Assembly: GCA_014728985.1 (NCBI GenBank)
Contig: WJKS01000007.1
Coordinates: forward strand, 1-32,025
Source of the DNA: Candidatus Aenigmatarchaeota archaeon
GTDB taxonomy: Archaea; Aenigmatarchaeota; Aenigmatarchaeia; CG10238-14
DNA length: 32,025 nt
Direction of reading: 5' to 3'
The position numbers and the translations under genes are program-made. The notes beneath the pieces are model-generated. The model worked only from the letters and a program-made list of their open reading frames with translations. It did not search any database and was not told the origin of the DNA. This document shows positions 13,087 to 22,608 of this stretch, piece by piece. Each line of letters starts with the position of its first letter. Within the stretch, counting starts at the first letter, position 1.

Positions 13087-13476
13087 ATGTTAAAATTTGA
13101 ACGTGCTTATGACATTCAAACCAGAGTAAATAGAATATTATCTGTTCTTGATTTCCCGCATATCAGAAGAAATAGAGTTATTTGTATGAGGAGCCAGGGA
13201 TCAAAATCTAAAGCTACGGCAAGGATATGGAGTATGCCCAGAATCTGGCAGAAAGCTTTAGGTATAAAATCTCATTATGTCATTGAAGTGATTTCTGAAA
13301 GATTTGATAAGTTAAACAAAGAAGACCAGGAAAGGACATTGATACATGAAATAATGCATATCCCTAAAACCTTTAGCGGTGCCTTAGTTCCACATAAATG
13401 TTTTGGTAAAAAAATCGACAGGAAAAGTGTGGAGAAGATGTACAAGGAATACAAATCGAAGTTAAAAAAACTTTAA
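13087..13476 (+). CDS. predicted zinc metallopeptidase (COG4900-like)
   Basis: HEIMH motif: RTLIHEIMHIPKTFSGALVPHK. Confidence 0.7.
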   Translation: MLKFERAYDIQTRVNRILSVLDFPHIRRNRVICMRSQGSKSKATARIWSMPRIWQKALGIKSHYVIEVISERFDKLNKEDQERTLIHEIMHIPKTFSGALVPHKCFGKKIDRKSVEKMYKEYKSKLKKL

Positions 13477-13505: not shown

Positions 13506-15623
13506 TTGTTAGGTAAAATTTTTGGAAAAAAAAGGTACAATGTTCAGGAAATTGAAAGGAAGGCAAAGGAGCATGTACCTGAAAAGGTGAAGAAACCAAA
13601 AAGACCTAAATTTGAGAGGGCATGTAATTTTGCAAGAGAGAAACTGAACCTGAAAGCCTCTAAAGGAATGCGAGAAAAACTCCGAAAATCTATCTTAATG
13701 ATAGATCTTGACATCACTCCAGATGGTGTTTTTTCATTAACTGTCCTTACTTTGCTTGTTCTTCTTGTTGCAATTATACCATTTTTCATTCTAATGGGAG
13801 GGATTAATCTACTTTTACCATTTCTCCCCTTTATTGGAGCATATTTTATTTACACATATCCAGGCTATCTTGCTGCCGTAACAAAGATTAGAGCAGCCGA
13901 TGAAACCGTTAAAGTTATTCTATATATGGTAATATATCTCAGATTCAATCCTCATCTGGAAGGTGCGTTGAGTTTTGCCGCAGAACATTGTCGCGGACCT
14001 ATAGGAAAAGATTTCAGAGAGTTTTTATGGGGAATACAGAGTGGTCAATATCTAACCGTAAATCAAGCAATAAGTACAAAAATGGAAAAATGGTTGATAT
14101 GGGACAAAGAATTTGTAGAATCAATGAATCTATTGCTCTCAATGACTAGAATAGGGGACGAGGAAGTTAGAAAAAGAACTCTCACTAAAGCCTTATCATA
14201 TATATTGACTTCTACCTATGAGAAAATGAAAGAATATACTCGTAATCTGAGATCACCAATAACAATAATACACAGTATGGGGATTACTTTTCCACTAATG
14301 GGCTTAGTAATGTTCCCAATGATTTCAATTTTCCTACACGACCAATTTAACCCACTTTATTTGGTTATAGGTTATACGGTGATTCTTCCTTCAATCCTTT
14401 ATTTTTATCTTAAAAGAACTATTTCAAAGAGACCAGGAGCATTCACGGCTCCAGATATATCTGAACACCCAGATGTACCTCCTGAAGGAAAATATAGATT
14501 AAAATTATTCAGTAAAAAAATACTGGTTCCAGTTCTGATAATAGCTTTAATAGTGATGTTTTATAGTTCCATCCCTGGATTAGCCCATTTCTTCAGTTTG
14601 GCTTCTAATTATATTACCTTTAAACAGGATTCGGATACTTTTTCAGAAAACTGGAAAGAGTTCCTGAGTAATCAATACAAACCTGATGTTCTGTTCAAAT
14701 TAACTTTCTATTCATTGAGTATAATCTGGGGGATAGCATTAGGTACAATTGTTTATTGTTTAGGTATGAGCCAACAGAGGCTAAAGATAAGGAATGAAAT
14801 AAAGGAGATAGAAAATGAGTTTCAGATTGCACTATTTAATCTGGCGGATGTTTTATCTTCTGGAATACCAATAGAAACTGCCTTAGAAGAGGTATCAATA
14901 AAATATAAACGTTCAAAAATGGATGATTCTCCGATGTATAAATTTTTCATTGACATGCTGAGAAATATGAAGAATATGGGAATGACATTTGAGAGGGCTG
15001 TATTTGATAGAAATTACGGTGCTATAATAAGGTTTCCTTCAAAACTTGTACAGGACATAATGAAAATAATTGTTTCAGCGTCAAGAAAATCTTCTGTTAT
15101 ACTTTCTGTCGCGACCAGGTCGATATCGGATTTTCTTTCCAAAACTAAGAATATTGAATCTTTACTTAAGCAAATGTTGGAAGAGATCAGCTCCTCACTT
15201 AAGTTACAAGCTGTTTTTATCGCCCCCTTTATCTGTGCAATTGTTGCTAGTATAGGTACTTTTATTGTTGAGTTGCTACAAAAAGTTGCAGAATATTTAG
15301 CATCTATAGAAGAAAGTTTCAATATGGGAGGGACCTTTATCCATGGTGGAACCGTAAAGTTCGGAGAAACTTTAGGTTTGATAAATATAGAACAAGTTAT
15401 GCCACCAACCTTTTTTCAACTTGTCATAGGAATCTACATGATAGAAATTGTAATTATCCTTTCCTATTTTTTAAACGGCATTAGGAACGGATTTGATAAA
15501 ACCACAAGAAACGTTTTGATTGGAAAGACCCTTTTAACTTCACTACTGCTTTATTCAATATTACTTATAATTTCACTATATTTAACAAAGGGCCTATTTC
15601 CCATGTTCGAAGGAGGAATATAA
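13506..15623 (+). CDS. TadC/FlaJ-like type IV pilus membrane platform protein (type II secretion F-domain family), TTG start
   Basis: 705 aa, repeated TM clusters with GAIIRFPSKLVQDIMKIIVSASRKSS and ALFNLADVLSSGIPIETALEEV motifs; multiple TMs typical of archaeal FlaJ/TadC. Confidence 0.85.
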   Translation: MLGKIFGKKRYNVQEIERKAKEHVPEKVKKPKRPKFERACNFAREKLNLKASKGMREKLRKSILMIDLDITPDGVFSLTVLTLLVLLVAIIPFFILMGGINLLLPFLPFIGAYFIYTYPGYLAAVTKIRAADETVKVILYMVIYLRFNPHLEGALSFAAEHCRGPIGKDFREFLWGIQSGQYLTVNQAISTKMEKWLIWDKEFVESMNLLLSMTRIGDEEVRKRTLTKALSYILTSTYEKMKEYTRNLRSPITIIHSMGITFPLMGLVMFPMISIFLHDQFNPLYLVIGYTVILPSILYFYLKRTISKRPGAFTAPDISEHPDVPPEGKYRLKLFSKKILVPVLIIALIVMFYSSIPGLAHFFSLASNYITFKQDSDTFSENWKEFLSNQYKPDVLFKLTFYSLSIIWGIALGTIVYCLGMSQQRLKIRNEIKEIENEFQIALFNLADVLSSGIPIETALEEVSIKYKRSKMDDSPMYKFFIDMLRNMKNMGMTFERAVFDRNYGAIIRFPSKLVQDIMKIIVSASRKSSVILSVATRSISDFLSKTKNIESLLKQMLEEISSSLKLQAVFIAPFICAIVASIGTFIVELLQKVAEYLASIEESFNMGGTFIHGGTVKFGETLGLINIEQVMPPTFFQLVIGIYMIEIVIILSYFLNGIRNGFDKTTRNVLIGKTLLTSLLLYSILLIISLYLTKGLFPMFEGGI

Positions 15624-15626
15624 TAA

Positions 15627-16931
15627 ATGAAAGGTATGGCATTGGAAACAATCGGATTTATAACAATAGCTTTAATTGGCGTATCTGTACTAATTATTCT
15701 TGTTTCTGGTAGTTTGGGTAGTATGTCACGAAACGTCTTCTGCTATTTTTATCAAAATGTTTTTGGAAAAAATATTGAAATGTGCGAAGAAAAAGGTAAT
15801 ATACCAGAAACACTTGAAATTAAACCTAAGGATTCTGAAGAGTTAGCTAGATATATAGCTGCCTATTCAATCAAATGCTGGGAAGATGCAACAAAATCTC
15901 TTAACACTGAGGATACCAATTGCTTTAATTTGATTATAGAAACTGGACCCTTTGATCCAGGGGTAGATGAGATTAGTGTAACTGATATTCTTTTGGCTGA
16001 AGGTGGATGCAGTAAACTAGGTAATTATAACCTTAATGATAATTGTGGAACGGAAGATCAGTTAAGATGGGAAATTAGTAGTGGAGGATATTCTCTTTGG
16101 GAAAATAGAGGGCCTGATGCAGCTTGGACTGATAATTCCGGGGTTCTACATATAGTTAATGGGAACTGGGTATGGGAAAATTCGGGTTCCTGGTCTGGAC
16201 CCATTGAAATTTCAACTCTAAGTCCATTTAATAGCCTAACGGTATCTGGAAACGAGTATTATCCTTGGGAAAATGGTGGTATTGATGCCGCTTGGATGAA
16301 CAATGTTGACAAGATTAGCATAAGTAATGGTGGGTGGATATGGACATGGACTCCATCTAACGGATGGAATGGCCCTATCAACTTTTACGAAAGACCGTAT
16401 TGGGGAGATGAGAACCATGCCACATACGGTTTGGAGCCTTCTCCAGACGGATATCTATGGAGTGGCTATGGATTGGATGTTGGGTGGTTAACATCTAATA
16501 ATAGATATGCGATGAATGAAAAATGGTTATGGTTTTTTGACCCAAATGACAACAGTTGTGGAAGAAGTAGGTGTTGGCGTGGACCATATGATGTTTTAAA
16601 TTATGTGAATGTAGGAGAATACAATTGGGGCTCTAGTCATGGCATGAGTCCCTCAGCTGACGGTTATCCCTGGGAGAATGGGGGTATTGATGCCGCTTGG
16701 ACTGATAACTCAGGAATTACATATATAACCAATGGGAAATGGCAGTGGTATTATAGCCCTAACGATAATAGTTGTGGTGAGATAGGTTGTTGGTCCTCTC
16801 CTGAAGATATCTCATCCTTGCCCTTAATAGAAACTGATTACTGTATAGGTAGTAAATGCCCCATTACTGACCAACAATTGATTCTAATAAAATATGACGA
16901 TATCGAAAAACAAATAGTTGTAAAAGGCTAA
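15627..16931 (+). CDS. pilin-like anchored protein carrying four hemopexin-like repeats
   Basis: MKGMALETIGFITIALIGVSVLIILV N-terminus; four WENGGIDAAWTDNSG..I.NG.W.W repeats; C-terminal strand LILIKYDDIEKQIVVKG. Confidence 0.8.
   Translation: MKGMALETIGFITIALIGVSVLIILVSGSLGSMSRNVFCYFYQNVFGKNIEMCEEKGNIPETLEIKPKDSEELARYIAAYSIKCWEDATKSLNTEDTNCFNLIIETGPFDPGVDEISVTDILLAEGGCSKLGNYNLNDNCGTEDQLRWEISSGGYSLWENRGPDAAWTDNSGVLHIVNGNWVWENSGSWSGPIEISTLSPFNSLTVSGNEYYPWENGGIDAAWMNNVDKISISNGGWIWTWTPSNGWNGPINFYERPYWGDENHATYGLEPSPDGYLWSGYGLDVGWLTSNNRYAMNEKWLWFFDPNDNSCGRSRCWRGPYDVLNYVNVGEYNWGSSHGMSPSADGYPWENGGIDAAWTDNSGITYITNGKWQWYYSPNDNSCGEIGCWSSPEDISSLPLIETDYCIGSKCPITDQQLILIKYDDIEKQIVVKG
16083..16818 (+). repeat. 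four degenerate protein-coding repeats, hemopexin-like (units ~16083-16215, 16257-16391, 16446-16608, 16659-16818)
   Basis: LWENRGPDAAWTDNSGVLHIVNGNWVWENSGSWSGPIEIS / PWENGGIDAAWMNNVDKISISNGGWIWTW..GWNGPINF / LWSGYGLDVGWLTSNNRYAMNEKWLWFFD..CWRGPYDV / PWENGGIDAAWTDNSGITYITNGKWQWYYS..CWSSPEDIS. Confidence 0.85.
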
Positions 16932-16936
16932 ATTTC

Positions 16937-17881
16937 TTAATTAACTCTAACCCAATCTAAACGATGATCGCATCCCCCACGGTCTGTGCATATATCCACA
17001 TAAAGAACATTATCATCTATATTTATTGTATTTTCACCATTCCCGTCGATATTATTAGCTATTCTCTCCCATCCACTTGATTTACGTGCATAAACATCTA
17101 AATTACTATGACAATTTGCCACAGCCCTAAAATTTATACTGGATACATAAGTCCAATCCCCAACGCTTAGCCTTGCACATTGACCTAAATTATAACCAGC
17201 TCTAACACAACAGTTATCGACGTCACCTTCTATACATAAAAATTCATTCCATTCTGAACCTGTCCATCCCCCATCATTCCCGCAATCAGGGTCAATAATA
17301 TTATCATCTTGACAGTTAGTCCCTGAACAACCACAATAAAGTTTACTCAGATAACCCATTTCATTTGCACAATAGCTAATAGTATCAGGTGTTAAGGACC
17401 CGTCGTGAGAAATATATACTCTAACTTCACCATTACCTCTTCTCTTTAAAATCACTTCATAAGTCTTGAAACCAATTTTACCGCCTATTTTTTCCAAAAG
17501 ACCATTAAGTGTTTCGCCCTCAACCTTAGATATCACATGAACTTCACATCCTAAATCCCTACATTCTATACTATCTCTAAATTCCAGACAAAGTTTATTA
17601 CCATTCGAAAATCCACCGGAGTCTACATTATATGCACCATCATCTGAAGCATAGATACTTCGACTGAAATCCGAAAAAGAATTTGTACTTGAAAGGTATT
17701 CTAAACCCACTTTTTCACAAAAACTATTGATATCTAAAATCAGCATGTCAAAAGTTTCCATTGTTGACTGTCTATGCTTTTCTATTGTCATATTAGAAAA
17801 AATTTGTAGGAATAAGGAGAATAGGATGAAAGATATTATCAGACCACCAATTATCCATATCCAATTTGAAACTCCCTTCAA
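16937..17881 (-). CDS. pilin-like anchored protein with Cys-rich, beta-sandwich-like C-terminal domain
   Basis: MKGVSNWIWIIGGLIISFILFSLFL N-terminus paralogous to 21662-22192; C-term SSINFRAVANCHSNLDVYARKSSGWERIANN...VDICTDRGGCDHRLDWVRVN. Confidence 0.75.
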   Translation of the reverse strand: MKGVSNWIWIIGGLIISFILFSLFLQIFSNMTIEKHRQSTMETFDMLILDINSFCEKVGLEYLSSTNSFSDFSRSIYASDDGAYNVDSGGFSNGNKLCLEFRDSIECRDLGCEVHVISKVEGETLNGLLEKIGGKIGFKTYEVILKRRGNGEVRVYISHDGSLTPDTISYCANEMGYLSKLYCGCSGTNCQDDNIIDPDCGNDGGWTGSEWNEFLCIEGDVDNCCVRAGYNLGQCARLSVGDWTYVSSINFRAVANCHSNLDVYARKSSGWERIANNIDGNGENTINIDDNVLYVDICTDRGGCDHRLDWVRVN

Positions 17882-17921
17882 GATACCACTAATTTATTTT
17901 AGGCTTCCTATAATTTAAGTT

Positions 17922-18344
17922 ATGATAAAAGCACAGATGTCTCTTGAGTATATAGTAAAAATTACAATACTGCTTGTAGTCGTGATAGTTATAACTGGCA
18001 TGATAATAAATTTCTATGATCAAATAAAAGCCAAAATAAAAGAACTTTTCGGAAGAAAAGAACCTGAAGTGGATTTTCCAAAAATAATTGATAAAACTAG
18101 TTTTACCGCAGGGGAGGTTTCAGCTTATATAGAAAGTTGCCATTCAACTATGAGTTCACTTCCAGAAGAAGTCCAAGACAATATCATTTGTTATCTGCTT
18201 AGGTCGGATACCATTATTACTATTGATACTGGTCTTGCAACCCCAGGCGGAATAACCGTTACCTGGAATTGGGTATCTGGAACCTTTGACGAAATGAAAA
18301 TTGAATATCAAGATGTAGGAAACGAAATTGTAATAAGTGATTGA
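17922..18344 (+). CDS. small pilin-like protein with class III signal peptide
   Basis: MIKAQMSLEYIVKITILLVVVIVITGMI: A|QMSLEY prepilin peptidase-type site; C-terminal strand MKIEYQDVGNEIVISD. Confidence 0.8.
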   Translation: MIKAQMSLEYIVKITILLVVVIVITGMIINFYDQIKAKIKELFGRKEPEVDFPKIIDKTSFTAGEVSAYIESCHSTMSSLPEEVQDNIICYLLRSDTIITIDTGLATPGGITVTWNWVSGTFDEMKIEYQDVGNEIVISD

Positions 18345-18345
18345 T

Positions 18346-18825
18346 TTGAAAGGCATAACCTTCAACATTATTGTCTTTGCCACAATAGCTCTAGTATCTG
18401 TGGTCATATTTCTTATCGTTCTTAATTCCATTATTCCAAATTTTATCGGGAGAGGCTTATGCAAATTATATCAAATTTTTCTCTCTTTACCACTTCCAAA
18501 AGAGTTAAAACCCCCAATACCTGGTTGCTCTATATTCCCTAGGATGGAGAGATTACGTTTCCCAGAAGGCTCAGCAACTACTTTGGCAAATTATTTAATA
18601 CAATGTTGGGAAAAATCTGAAGAAGGGAAATTGGGTCAAACTTTCATTTGCTACGAATTATTTTTAAAGGAAATTCCCATCCCATTCGATGATGGAGATG
18701 TCACAACAGGCTCTACAGTTCCAATTACCTGGAAAATAAATCCTCCATCAGGACTCATAGAAGGAGAGGATATAACTATAATCATAAAATACAACGCTGA
18801 AACTCAAAGAGTAGAAGTGATTTAA
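18346..18825 (+). CDS. small pilin-like protein (start re-placed at TTG 18346 giving MKGITFN...)
   Basis: TTG at 18346 gives the same MKG N-terminus as sister genes; CW motif YLIQCWEKS and C-term DITIIIKYNAETQRVEVI. Confidence 0.7.
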   Translation: MKGITFNIIVFATIALVSVVIFLIVLNSIIPNFIGRGLCKLYQIFLSLPLPKELKPPIPGCSIFPRMERLRFPEGSATTLANYLIQCWEKSEEGKLGQTFICYELFLKEIPIPFDDGDVTTGSTVPITWKINPPSGLIEGEDITIIIKYNAETQRVEVI

Positions 18826-20063
18826 TGGAAACAGGTCTAATAGGCGCAGTTTTAATAGGTTTAGTAGTTTTGGTAGTGTCCGTATTAATCATTAAATCTC
18901 TTGGATATGAAATTCAACTAAATATTAAAGAGGGTATCAAAGAGTTCTTCGGAGAAATTTATTCCCAAATTTTTGGAAGAGACTATTATAATATCTGTGA
19001 AGTTTATGATAATGATTATATCTCATTTAACGACTTTAAAACCCTTTTAAATGCGGTTTATAATAAAAAATGTGGGAACTCAAAAATAAATGTAATAATA
19101 AGCTTTTCTCTAAGAGAAGAAGATATTAAAAAATTAGCAGAGGAACTTGATATAGCAAAAAACGGTGAACTAATATATCAAGGCTCAAGTGACGAAACAC
19201 TTGGAATGGGTGCAATAATAGTTGATACAGAACACACTGGAAATTTCTTATTTGAATTCCGAGATGAAATTACTCTCTGGAATGAAGGCGAACCAAATGA
19301 AGATACTCTAATAAGTTTAACTGGGCTAGATTGTGATATCTACGATAAAACTTGTACACCAACAACAGGATATATACCCCCTACATTTACATTACTCTAC
19401 ATTCAGCTAGAGGGAAATGTCCCAGACTTTGAAACTAAGGCTGAGGGTGCTAAGGACTTCTGGGTCCAAAAAACATCCTTATCTTCATGTCCAGATAGAG
19501 TGAATTTCATCGCTGAAAATACCCAAATTTGTGACGTCCCTGATCAAATTGATATTTGTGGTGCTTCAGCAGCTATAGCAGAGGCAACAGTTTCCCAGAC
19601 TATGAATTCTATTTCTAATTGTATCAATAATTGGGGCTATACAGATGATTATACTAGGGTTGTTGGGATTATACCGGGGGATTATGTGTGTTCTGGTAGT
19701 TTAGGTTCTGTTAATGGTTACGCCTATATCAACGGAGAATATGTTGTTAGTGCGGAAGGGGACTTTACTAGTCTCCATTATTTATCTTCCACATCTACAC
19801 ATGAGTTGGGTCATACTTTTGGTCTTTGTGATGAAGGTTATGGGAATTGTATAGACAACGGTTGCTCAAGTGGTTTTAGAGAAGGTGAATGTACTTCGAT
19901 GGGGTGTATTGACACTACTACCCACTGCTGTCCGAACGAACCTGAATTAGATAGTATTATGTGTACTTTTGATGATTGTAATAGAGGATGTGATTACGAT
20001 CATCGATTCGCAGATACCAGCCGAACATACCTTGAAAGCCAATTAAATAGTTATTGTAATTAA
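18825..20063 (+). CDS. membrane-anchored metzincin-type metalloprotease
   Basis: N-terminal TM GLIGAVLIGLVVLVVSVLII; HELGHTFGLCD (HExxHxxGxxD, 19800-19832) and downstream DSIM Met-turn-like element; Cys-rich. Confidence 0.8.
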   Translation: METGLIGAVLIGLVVLVVSVLIIKSLGYEIQLNIKEGIKEFFGEIYSQIFGRDYYNICEVYDNDYISFNDFKTLLNAVYNKKCGNSKINVIISFSLREEDIKKLAEELDIAKNGELIYQGSSDETLGMGAIIVDTEHTGNFLFEFRDEITLWNEGEPNEDTLISLTGLDCDIYDKTCTPTTGYIPPTFTLLYIQLEGNVPDFETKAEGAKDFWVQKTSLSSCPDRVNFIAENTQICDVPDQIDICGASAAIAEATVSQTMNSISNCINNWGYTDDYTRVVGIIPGDYVCSGSLGSVNGYAYINGEYVVSAEGDFTSLHYLSSTSTHELGHTFGLCDEGYGNCIDNGCSSGFREGECTSMGCIDTTTHCCPNEPELDSIMCTFDDCNRGCDYDHRFADTSRTYLESQLNSYCN

Positions 20064-20087
20064 GTTAATATTAAACAGGTAAGATAT

Positions 20088-20660
20088 ATGGGAAAAAAGT
20101 TAATTTTCACGATTAGTCTATTGATCTTCTTCTCCCTAATTTTCTCTACATCTTACAGTAAGGAATTAGTTCATTCCTTGGATATGATGATCTATAGAAA
20201 TGATACCGTTGAACTCAAGAATCTAAATCTTATATATGCCAAACCAGGTGAATTCTCTGAAAGATATCTGGATTATAGTGTCAAAGTTTTTTCTGATGAT
20301 GATAAAATTCTATCTGAAGAAAATTTAAGAGTCTCTTTCCTGCTATCCTTAGATCCAATTGGGACTATTATTACCAATAGCACTTTCGTCCATGTCAATG
20401 TACCTTATTTTGAAAATGGGAAGAGAATTGGTATATTCCATCTAGATAAAGAAATACTAAATATAGATCTTCAGAAAGAATTTTGTAACAAGGATGGAAT
20501 TTGTGGCCCAGGGGAAAATATCTACAGTTGCCCAGAAGATTGTTCGGAAACTAAAGATAGAAAATCCTTTCCATTTTCCTTATTGATATTTTTAGCTCTG
20601 ATAGCATCATTAATTGTGGTTATTCTAACAAGGAGAAAACCAACAAAAGGAATTAAATAA
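20088..20660 (+). CDS. secreted protein with C-terminal TM anchor and Cys/Asp motif
   Basis: Signal peptide MGKKLIFTISLLIFFSLIFSTSYSK; CNKDGICGPGENIYSCPEDC; C-term SLLIFLALIASLIVVILTRRKPTKG. Confidence 0.75.
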   Translation: MGKKLIFTISLLIFFSLIFSTSYSKELVHSLDMMIYRNDTVELKNLNLIYAKPGEFSERYLDYSVKVFSDDDKILSEENLRVSFLLSLDPIGTIITNSTFVHVNVPYFENGKRIGIFHLDKEILNIDLQKEFCNKDGICGPGENIYSCPEDCSETKDRKSFPFSLLIFLALIASLIVVILTRRKPTKGIK

Positions 20661-20700
20661 ATACCTAATTAATTTATTCCAACTTAACCAATCTTATCTT

Positions 20701-21654
20701 ATGAAGGGTGTTGCACAAGGAATCCCAAGTTATCTGTATGTTCTTGCTGCTATAGTAGTGGGTATAATTATGTTAGTTATTTTATCAAGATACTCCAAAG
20801 TACTTTTCGGGGAAAAGGCTGAATTAAGGTTAACAGGAGATGAGCAGGAAATATCTAAGAGGCTTTCTGAAATTATTCAAAAGTGTTGGGTTGATAATAG
20901 AAGGGGATTAGAGGATGAATCTAGTATCTACAAAGAGATTAGTCTTACTGATAGCCTGAAAATAGAAGAGAAGAATTTAACTGATCATTTGGACTGTGAA
21001 AAATTACCCAACAATGATTGCTATATTTATCCTGATGGCTCTGACCCAGATTATGACTGTAGTTTATGTGATTCCCCTTATTTTGATGATGGTGATAAAA
21101 TAATTTGGCTTGCCGAAGAGGATAATACAGAATTGAAAATAAGTTATCATGGGGGTTCCCGTAAGATTGTGGTAGTTGGTTACCCATGCGATGACAGATG
21201 TATGTGTGAAAGAGATTGTAAGAAGAAATGTATAGATGGTTTATCTACAACAGAATGCGAGGACTGTTATAATGACTGTGGGACTATTGTAGTAATAACT
21301 ACAACTATCACTACTCCCATTACTACAACTACAAATATTATTACAACTACTAGCACTAGCACTACGATACCAACACCTCAATGGTCTCAATGTTTCAGCC
21401 CAGCAGACTATTTAGACTTTCTCACATGTAACGATCTTTGTGCTTCCATAGGAAAAGTATGTGTCAACGCCTGTATAGTTAATACCGATAAAGGTCCTGT
21501 CACTACTGGACTTAAAGGTTATGGTTATGAAGACCATAATTGTGGAAGTAGTTCATTAATTATCGAATGGGAGATAGTAAAAGATTATAGTTGTAGTTGG
21601 CCAGAATGTGTTTGGCCTGGACATAGAAATAGCTGTAAATGCTGTTGTCGGTGA
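20701..21654 (+). CDS. pilin-like anchored protein with Thr-rich linker and Cys-rich C-terminal domain
   Basis: MKGVAQGIPSYLYVLAAIVVGIIMLVIL; EIIQKCWVDN motif; TTTITTPITTTTNIITTTSTSTTIPTP linker; C-terminal CKCCCR. Confidence 0.75.
   Translation: MKGVAQGIPSYLYVLAAIVVGIIMLVILSRYSKVLFGEKAELRLTGDEQEISKRLSEIIQKCWVDNRRGLEDESSIYKEISLTDSLKIEEKNLTDHLDCEKLPNNDCYIYPDGSDPDYDCSLCDSPYFDDGDKIIWLAEEDNTELKISYHGGSRKIVVVGYPCDDRCMCERDCKKKCIDGLSTTECEDCYNDCGTIVVITTTITTPITTTTNIITTTSTSTTIPTPQWSQCFSPADYLDFLTCNDLCASIGKVCVNACIVNTDKGPVTTGLKGYGYEDHNCGSSSLIIEWEIVKDYSCSWPECVWPGHRNSCKCCCR
21289..21375 (+). repeat. low-complexity Thr-codon tract (Thr-rich linker)
   Basis: actacaactatcactactcccattactacaactaca... encodes TTTITTPITTTTNIITTTSTSTT. 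Confidence 0.85.
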
Positions 21655-21661
21655 TTAAGAA

Positions 21662-22192
21662 ATGAAAGGAGTAGCAAATTGGATCCTGGTAATAGGAGGT
21701 ATGATAATGGGGATTGTGATATTCACAATTAGTGCGAGTTTACTGATAAACCATATCAGAACAATGAAGAGACAAACAGTTCTGGGACAAATACAAAACT
21801 TTCATGATGAATTGACTACTATCTGCAAAATGGGACTAGGACACAGAAAAAAATATTATTTAGTTCTTCCGGATACTGTCAGAGCCGTCTATGTTGCAAA
21901 TAAAAGTTATGATACTCCGCCTGACAAGGTTTCTGCTTATATCTCTGACAAGGTTTCTGCTGTGGGTAATCATACCTGCATTCAATTCTTCGATGAGAAT
22001 GTCCCTATCTGTCAATACATTGGCTGTAAAACCCGATTAACTTACATTGGTTCTCCCTCACTTAAGTCAAACCTGCAAGTATTTGTTGCGCAGTTAAAAG
22101 GGGAATACCCTGTTTATGAGTATACACTACAGATAGAGAAAGCGGGTGAATATTTCCTGGATGTTGATGCTGAAGAAGGAATAGAAGATTAA
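21662..22192 (+). CDS. pilin-like protein, paralog of 16937-17881 core
   Basis: MKGVANWILVIGGMIMGIVIFTI; shared C...FxD...C...GC pattern with the minus-strand paralog. Confidence 0.75.
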   Translation: MKGVANWILVIGGMIMGIVIFTISASLLINHIRTMKRQTVLGQIQNFHDELTTICKMGLGHRKKYYLVLPDTVRAVYVANKSYDTPPDKVSAYISDKVSAVGNHTCIQFFDENVPICQYIGCKTRLTYIGSPSLKSNLQVFVAQLKGEYPVYEYTLQIEKAGEYFLDVDAEEGIED

Positions 22193-22608
22193 TCATTAGT
22201 CTCAAATAAAAATCTGTACCTGTCTTTACCAACTCTTTCAACGGATTTAATTCTGATTTTACCTATCTCACTGGTATTGTCAACATGATTATCTGCACAT
22301 GGCCTTTTATCAAACTCCTGAATATCAACGATTCTTATTTCTTGGGTTTTCTTCGGAACTTTCCGTAAATCTACTTCCTTTTCCGCTTCTTCTCTTGATA
22401 GAATATATTTCTTTACCACGAGATTATTAGATATGATTTTATTTGTTTGGTTCTCTAGGTCTTCTAGAACAACTTCTCTTAAATCTAATCTGGAATAAAC
22501 CTCCAGTAGTCCGATATCATCAAACTTGCAAATACCGACCTTAACATCAAATCTATCTTCAAGTATCTTTGCTATAATATGTTCGGCCGTGGGAAGCCTT
22601 GGGTCCAT
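22189..22608 (-). CDS. AlaX-like tRNA-editing (SAD domain) protein
   Basis: RLPTAEHI and CADNHVDNTSEIGKIRI, equivalent to the HxxxH / CxxxH zinc motifs of alanyl-tRNA editing proteins. Confidence 0.8.
   Translation of the reverse strand: MDPRLPTAEHIIAKILEDRFDVKVGICKFDDIGLLEVYSRLDLREVVLEDLENQTNKIISNNLVVKKYILSREEAEKEVDLRKVPKKTQEIRIVDIQEFDKRPCADNHVDNTSEIGKIRIKSVERVGKDRYRFLFETND

Follow-up and report, generated by a model that had tools for sequence, protein, structure and literature searches.

The DNA analyzed here, a window of 32,025 nucleotides from a genome of Candidatus Aenigmatarchaeota (DPANN), contains an array locus that is real and conserved in relatives and that represents, with a probability of roughly 0.7, one half of an archaeal type IV filament system, namely its pilin array. 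Its platform, FlaJ-2, would serve core and modular pilins with the help of a borrowed ATPase, and the swappable heads of the modular pilins may be used to grip and digest another cell. The source genome is small (~1.0 Mb), and the archaeon is probably host-dependent. The assembly is a metagenome-assembled genome (MAG) that is 82% complete, and the arrays of its relatives end at contig edges in several cases.

As judged from sequence comparisons, the first gene of the locus encodes a divergent TadC/FlaJ platform, a paralogue without an ATPase of its own. The Pfam model T2SSF gave 17.1 bits, under its cut-off of 25.2, and a FlaJ-2 profile found no match of weight among PDB sequences. The type IV pilus-type platform gene proposed in the first-pass annotation is borne out by homology to the ATPase-linked FlaJ-1 elsewhere in the same genome (333 bits) and by a tree of FlaJ proteins, in which the FlaJ-2 clade (20 members, SH-aLRT 100) is paralogous to FlaJ-1. 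An own ATPase within 3 kb is missing from 19 of the 20 FlaJ-2 loci; the exception, L069, encodes FlaJ-2, a slot-1 pilin, one ATPase, and FlaJ-1 in that order on one strand.

Neither an ATPase nor a prepilin peptidase is encoded in the window, as had been noted at the outset, but both occur on other contigs of the genome. A FlaI-like ATPase (129.7 bits with the FlaI model, below cut-off) adjoins FlaJ-1 on contig C61, and a protein of contig C8 that exceeds the cut-offs of both Peptidase_A24 and Arc_PepC is an archaeal A24 prepilin peptidase. Because both platforms, a pilin, and a single ATPase stand in a row in L069, it is likely that FlaJ-2 shares the ATPase encoded with FlaJ-1, a partnership that we infer from the gene order of this locus. 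Two further T2SSE genes are located on C77 and C108 in separate Tad-type loci, whose ATPases could serve FlaJ-2 as well. Classification of the locus as a Tad (T4c) pilus, i.e., TadA plus paired TadB/TadC in one locus, was rejected in view of its single two-domain platform and the lack of an ATPase at the locus.

Table 1. Features of the FlaJ-2 locus (positions in the window)
Feature	Position	Strand	Evidence
FlaJ-2, TadC/FlaJ-type membrane platform, 705 aa	13506..15623	+	~9 predicted TM segments; homology to FlaJ-1
Slot-1 pilin core, N-terminal part (MKG leader, TM helix, alpha/beta core)	15627..16085	+	Orthologues, model, alignments
259-aa insert in slot-1 core hairpin, four W-rich hemopexin-like repeats	16086..16862	+	Repeats; sub-threshold Pfam match
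Slot-1 core, C-terminal strand pair (ITDQQLILIKYDDIEKQIVVKG)	16863..16931	+	Aligns with C terminus of insert-free orthologues; pLDDT ~95
WIW-slot pilin-like protein, TTG start	16937..17881	-	Core 17429-17881 common to 21662-22192 and relatives
Slot-2 pilin, MIKA|QMSLEY, without extra head	17922..18344	+	Conserved in 17 loci
Slot-3 pilin, MIDLKG leader, without extra head	18337..18825	+	Slot-1-like core
Slot-4 pilin-like core, without charged leader	18825..19373	+	Cores 31-39% identical in C25- and metzincin-bearing orthologues
Slot-4 head, metzincin protease	19374..20063	+	HELGHTFGLCD, Met-turn SIMC, fold
Companion protein, Sec-type signal and C-terminal TM, not a pilin	20088..20660	+	Family membership
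Pilin core (~residues 1-158), Thr-rich linker, Cys-rich head	20701..21654	+	Core via array profile
WIW-slot pilin-like protein without extra head	21662..22192	+	Core shared with 17429-17881

The ORFs and coordinates of the first-pass annotation proved to be as described. Between 15627 and 22192, seven of the eight ORFs combine a short N terminus, one N-terminal TM segment, and an ectodomain, which agrees with the at least six or seven single-TM pilin-like proteins postulated there except that the companion protein does not belong to them; its family has 20 members in the loci fetched, 17 of which are found in FlaJ-2-type arrays. The statement that most of the proteins start with MKG holds for four of them, with MIDLKG in a fifth, whereas the others start with MIKA|QMSLEY, i.e., the canonical class III site A|QMSLEY that had been correctly recognized in slot 2, and with METG (slot 4). 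A scripted strict prepilin rule matched five of nine ORFs of the array region, with the neighboring ORF 22189-22608 counted as the ninth, versus none of 30 elsewhere in the window. Class III signals are discernible by sequence in slots 1, 2, and 3, in both WIW-slot proteins, and in the 20701 protein, but not in slot 4; since the slot-4 orthologues likewise have no charged leader, cleavage by a prepilin peptidase is doubtful for them. Searches of single window proteins against Pfam and NCBIfam gave few matches over cut-off, and Class_IIIsignal reached only 12.7 bits with the slot-2 protein (cut-off 23.7). The genes are tightly spaced (+3, -8, -1, and +7 nt), the 8-nt overlap being that of slots 2 and 3. 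The gene overlaps that had been taken to suggest co-expression are real, but the array is not a single operon, because the gene at 16937-17881 lies on the opposite strand here and in relatives.

The co-occurrence with the TadC-like gene, on which the first-pass proposal had been staked, is evident: a slot-1 pilin is present in 24 of 26 genomes with FlaJ-2 versus 4 of 130 without it (P = 6e-22; 28 of 156 Aenigmatarchaeota genomes in total), at a distance of at most 620 bp from FlaJ-2 in 21 of 23 cases, and slot 4 also co-occurs with FlaJ-2 (P = 1e-8). This orthology-based test replaced a general count of prepilin-like proteins downstream of FlaJ-2, whose enrichment was just twofold (52/145 versus 39/188 in the rest of the same loci, P = 0.003) because the arrays run on both sides of the platform gene. 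The array proteins represent conserved slots, whose core is orthologous across species and whose head is exchanged, which strengthens the idea of functionalized pilins on one platform. Slots 1, 2, and 3 have one common ectocore (hhalign of slots 2 and 1, probability 98, E = 7.8e-14), and the hhalign probabilities for core homology to slot 1 of 50 for slot 4 and 73 for the WIW slot are suggestive only. Slot 2 is a candidate for the major pilin. A pilin module with a non-pilus domain, the hallmark of modular pilins, is found in slot 1 (insert), slot 4 (metzincin or C25), and a third slot (papain, M64, or M23+SLT).

In slot 1, much of the core was modeled with a pLDDT above 80-90, and the insert has no counterpart in the congeneric orthologue, nor did a search of the other 155 genomes find one. 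The hemopexin-like repeat domain recognized at first sight is supported by four repeats in the sequence, but Pfam Hemopexin remained below its cut-off (E = 0.0009, 19.6 bits, cut-off 21.3) and matched one repeat only. The structure model leaves the insert without a confident fold, and the four repeats may form a four-bladed propeller. A Foldseek search with the slot-1 model, insert included, gave no significant match and no pilin in the PDB because the unresolved insert swamps the search; the slot-1 profile and the propeller repeats had no match of weight among PDB sequences. The G+C content of the insert is 0.42 versus 0.34, and a horizontal origin is not claimed, since its Trp/Gly-rich composition may account for the difference.

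By motif and modeled fold, the head of slot 4 is a metzincin, as the first reading of the sequence had proposed. HELGHTFGLCD matches HEXXHXXGXX(H/D), SIMC is conserved, and in Foldseek the head model matched ADAM-8 and archaemetzincin with a probability of 1.00, the Met-turn lying in a low-confidence stretch; the match to archaemetzincin among PDB sequences was weak (E = 0.02). The extended zinc motif occurs in 13 of 103 array proteins versus 0.024 expected from shuffling, and in none of 236 soluble proteins. A DNA-level pattern for the motif found no match and was too narrow because of codon choice.

In other genomes, slot 4 carries a C25 (gingipain-type) protease, and in G025 residues 1-474 are 40-46% identical to the C25-type proteins, yet the C-terminal end is a metzincin. 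The third slot with swapped heads bears papain, M23+SLT, M64, or no head, and the WIW slot has a metzincin in G001 and G002. In the window, the candidate head of the minus-strand WIW-slot protein (~160 aa, 16940-17428) had no PDB sequence match, and that of the 20701 protein had no Pfam match of weight. Among the heads that belong to a known family, nearly all are hydrolytic enzymes or binding domains; a vWA domain in a protein of the same genome (L148:1436-2656) was dropped because the E value of the homologue was no better than 0.029. In both this genome and its congener, SLT+C39 and SLT+Amidase_2 heads occur on the FlaJ-1 array, and since archaea, to our knowledge, have no murein, these murein hydrolases hint at bacterial targets. 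A division into proteases with FlaJ-2 and murein hydrolases with FlaJ-1 was abandoned, given that G005 carries M23+SLT in a FlaJ-2-type slot.

In the proposed mechanism, the duplicated FlaJ-2 platform without its own ATPase would serve small core pilins and several modular pilins, it would most likely borrow the FlaI-like ATPase encoded on C61, and the prepilins would be cut by the A24 peptidase from C8. The orthologous core of a modular pilin may occupy a set position in the assembled structure, and its exposed head would have been swapped in evolution among metzincin, C25, papain, M64, murein hydrolase, hemopexin-like repeats, or none. In this species, a filament or pseudopilus might expose the metzincin together with a hemopexin-like binding domain at the surface, most likely for gripping another cell and digesting its surface locally. 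The presence of unrelated proteases in one slot of different species suggests that protease activity itself is the selected trait. Only tentatively do we extend this to a distinct subclass of type IV filaments in Aenigmatarchaeota, with an ATPase-less second platform, fixed slots, and exchangeable enzymes for the contact-dependent breaching of the surface of hosts or prey, including bacteria.

The same kind of filament or pseudopilus could also be used for feeding, its heads degrading extracellular free protein and murein debris without attacking living cells. The prevalence of hydrolases and binding domains among the heads would fit, and a ~1.0-Mb genome suggests dependence on scavenging, but we regard this use as unlikely: surface-tethered enzymes suit contact better than bulk digestion, and the DPANN archaea known in culture are attached to host cells (PMC11291902), although neither point is decisive. 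Less probable is that the array encodes ectoenzymes that are anchored in the membrane by a single TM segment and never polymerize, with FlaJ-2 as a T2SS-like or bindosome-like exporter. Class III signals occur on non-pilin proteins of the Sulfolobus bindosome, whose BasE model appears in the model search, slot 4 has no prepilin leader, and the slot-1 model, insert included, matched no pilin fold in the PDB; however, slot 2 has the classical cleavage site and is homologous over its length to slot 1, and conservation next to the platform gene, gene order included, extends to the cores as well as the anchors. That the proteases process the pilins or S-layer of their own cell, with no foreign target, is very unlikely, since the protease class in a slot varies among relatives while the cores persist, and murein hydrolases would have no substrate in archaea, even though surface peptidases of the transglutaminase family, which are associated with archaeal pilus loci and may process pilins, provide a parallel (Makarova et al. 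2016, PMC4858521).

Both modular pilins and the diversity of pilins in DPANN are known already; the ATPase-less platform with slot-wise swapping of enzymes was not found in the literature compared here. Bacterial modular pilins, e.g., PilB and PilC of S. sanguinis, comprise more than 1,200 proteins in 264 architectures with vWA, lectin, and peptidase grafts (PMC8179133). In them, too, a pilin module bears a grafted functional domain, but they were reported as individual proteins, whereas here several stand in one array of conserved slots with heads that vary by slot, and one graft lies, unlike those reported, inside the core hairpin. For DPANN lineages including Aenigmarchaeota, loci similar to those of type IV pili that encode CpaF, TadC, and coiled-coil proteins have been described (PMC11291902). 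The FlaJ-1 locus on C61, with its ATPase, FlaJ, and two adjoining ORFs with coiled-coil-type Pfam matches, resembles this type; FlaJ-2 has no ATPase or coiled-coil neighbor in the window, an arrangement absent from the portion of that paper compared here. Unannotated signal-peptide proteins beside TadC in DPANN were predicted to be diverse pilins (PMC6393860, Fig. 2A), but the heads, slots, proteases, and ATPase-less platform present here are not described in the part of that study considered. No pilins are annotated in the MAGs of PMC9563170. Pilins often remain unannotated in DPANN genomes, and FlaJ-2 together with the slot cores provides a rule for spotting them. Archaeal peptidoglycan hydrolases kill bacteria, and murein hydrolases of archaea are also prominent in Nanoarchaeota (PMC12352652); the word pilin is never used in that paper, whereas SLT, Amidase_2, and M23 sit here behind pilin-like N termini. 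The locus bears on the means by which DPANN archaea attach to other cells, penetrate them, or feed on them and offers specific proteins with testable activities on a defined platform (metzincin, C25, papain, M64, and murein hydrolases); a structural slot with unrelated proteases across species represents a natural experiment. The Epd pilus of Methanococci, a clade-1 archaeal type IV pilus, combines a single ATPase with two TadC components and five or more minor pilins (PMC4858521), and both of its TadC genes belong to one system, whereas here the second platform has an array of its own and is usually located elsewhere in the genome.

Comparison of related Aenigmatarchaeota genomes shows that the predicted heads of the pilin-like proteins encoded beside the platform FlaJ-2 are exchanged between species, while the cores of the conserved array positions (slots) persist. 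Slot 4 ends in a metzincin in the window, its congener G001, G002, and G025, and in a C25 protease in G048, G096, and G041. In G025, the core and Cys-rich stalk (residues 1 to 474) are 40 to 46% identical to the C25 proteins, and the end is a metzincin, which is a head swap at the stalk-head joint. The metzincin protease proposed in the first-pass annotation is borne out by an HELGHTFGLCD motif, an SIMC Met-turn, and a metzincin fold matching ADAM-8 and archaemetzincin. The WIW slot has an extra head in the window and a metzincin in G001 and G002; the SEN slot, located on contig C4 of the same genome, lacks a head there and in G001 and carries papain in locus L145, M23 plus SLT in G005, and M64 in G126. 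Of the 103 N-terminally anchored proteins encoded at these loci, 13 carry an extended zinc motif, where shuffling predicts 0.024; none of 236 soluble proteins has it. Contig C4 (L148:234-3987) contains four more pilin-like genes, whose G001 counterparts continue the FlaJ-2 array.

Features of the platform, its array, and related loci
Feature	Position	Size	Character
FlaJ-2 platform	13506-15623	705 aa	membrane protein, ~9 TM segments
Slot 1	15627-16931		
Slot-1 insert	16086-16862	259 aa	four repeats
WIW slot	16937-17881 (-); 21662-22192		
Slot 2	17922-18344		
Slot 3	18337-18825		
Slot 4	18825-20063		
20701 protein	20701-21654		core, Thr-rich linker, Cys-rich head
Last protein of FlaJ-1 array	L013:12811-15597 (C61)	928 aa	pilin-like; SLT transglycosylase and C39-like domains
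Its G001 counterpart	L065:2036-4411		SLT and Amidase_2
Prepilin-like proteins, Tad-type loci	L014:4654-7395 (C77); L015:8458-11091 (C108)	913 aa; 877 aa	vWA domains

In slot 1, the four-repeat domain is set between two core strands; it is missing from the congeneric orthologue (183 aa), replaced by a different insert at the same position in locus L114, and absent from the other 155 genomes searched. The repeats noted at first pass were recovered, but the name hemopexin-like is only a lead, because the Pfam Hemopexin match is under the cut-off. Structure models cover two proteins and are of mixed quality, the AlphaFold model of slot 1 having high confidence in the core on either side of the insert and low confidence within it. 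The insert has a G+C content of 0.42 versus 0.34 in the flanking core, which may be explained by Trp/Gly codon composition bias.

The initial ORF positions proved correct. Slots 1 to 3 and the 20701 protein are joined by iterated profiles (slot 1 versus slot 2, full length: hhalign probability 98, E = 7.8e-14), and their core is tied to pilins by the canonical class III site of slot 2. For slot 4, which lacks a charged leader, and the WIW slot, a relationship to this core is only suggestive. A family with a Sec-type signal and a C-terminal TM segment (window 20088-20660) recurs in pilin arrays (20 matches in the loci examined).

The expected conservation of platform and array in relatives was confirmed among 156 genomes of the phylum, namely, MAGs with contig breaks and script-made gene calls: slot 1 is present in 24 of 26 FlaJ-2 genomes and in 4 of 130 others (P = 6e-22), and slot 4 also co-occurs with FlaJ-2 (P = 1e-8), the exact counts carrying some judgement since FlaJ-2 was scored by match score with partial matches included. 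In two of the four slot-1 genomes without detected FlaJ-2 (G002 and G005), the array begins at or near a contig end. Slot 1 and FlaJ-2 share a contig in 23 cases; the distance between them is at most 620 bp in 21 of these and at most 5.4 kb in the other two.

The assignment of FlaJ-2 as a TadC/FlaJ platform is upheld by clear homology to FlaJ-1 of the same genome (333 bits), though its T2SSF match (17.1 bits) is weak and under the cut-off. A phylogeny of 89 FlaJ proteins places it inside a 20-member clade (SH-aLRT 100) made up of Aenigmatarchaeota or relatives of the same class, and 19 of the 20 lack an ATPase within 3 kb; in the sole exception (L069), FlaJ-2, slot-1 pilin, ATPase, and FlaJ-1 follow each other on one strand. 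The ATPase and prepilin peptidase sought beyond the window are both encoded in the genome (1.0 Mb, 82% complete), on contigs other than that of the window (C72): FlaJ-1 directly follows a 753-aa FlaI/TadA-like ATPase and precedes its own pilin-like array on C61, and an archaeal A24 peptidase lies on C8. Most simply, FlaJ-2 would have arisen by duplication and would use the ATPase of FlaJ-1; we infer this sharing rather than assert it, because two further T2SSE genes exist on C77 and C108. In Methanococci, one ATPase is known to accompany two TadC proteins (PMC4858521). PhageMetallopep/SprT-like proteins are encoded immediately 5' of FlaJ-2 in the window (13087-13476) and likewise upstream in G001 (L048:6328-6735).

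The C8 peptidase would probably cut the prepilins of slots 1 to 3 and others, which FlaJ-2, with the shared ATPase, would extract for assembly into a pilus or pseudopilus, slot 2 being the candidate major subunit. The modular pilins would present their heads on this structure, most likely to the surface of another cell. Because murein does not occur in archaea, the SLT/C39 and SLT/Amidase_2 heads of the FlaJ-1 arrays are likely to act on the walls of bacteria or on debris. Bacteria are well known to have modular pilins (PMC8179133). In DPANN, TadC-adjacent dark-matter proteins had earlier been predicted as diverse pilins (PMC6393860), and pilus loci that combine an ATPase, TadC, and coiled-coil proteins have been recorded (PMC11291902). 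Murein hydrolases of archaea are on record with no mention of pilins (PMC12352652). Neither the ATPase-less FlaJ-2 clade nor a slot-by-slot exchange of enzyme heads is described in the publications consulted, which came from open-licence PMC text.

Seven FlaJ loci (L080, L081, L082, L084, L089, L093, and L101), with no ATPase or prepilin-like genes in the flanks examined, possibly represent a third locus type. On C8 (L016:795-8009), the peptidase gene has as neighbours three ORFs resembling radical SAM/SPASM enzymes and one for a protein that contains a long (TTS)n tract.
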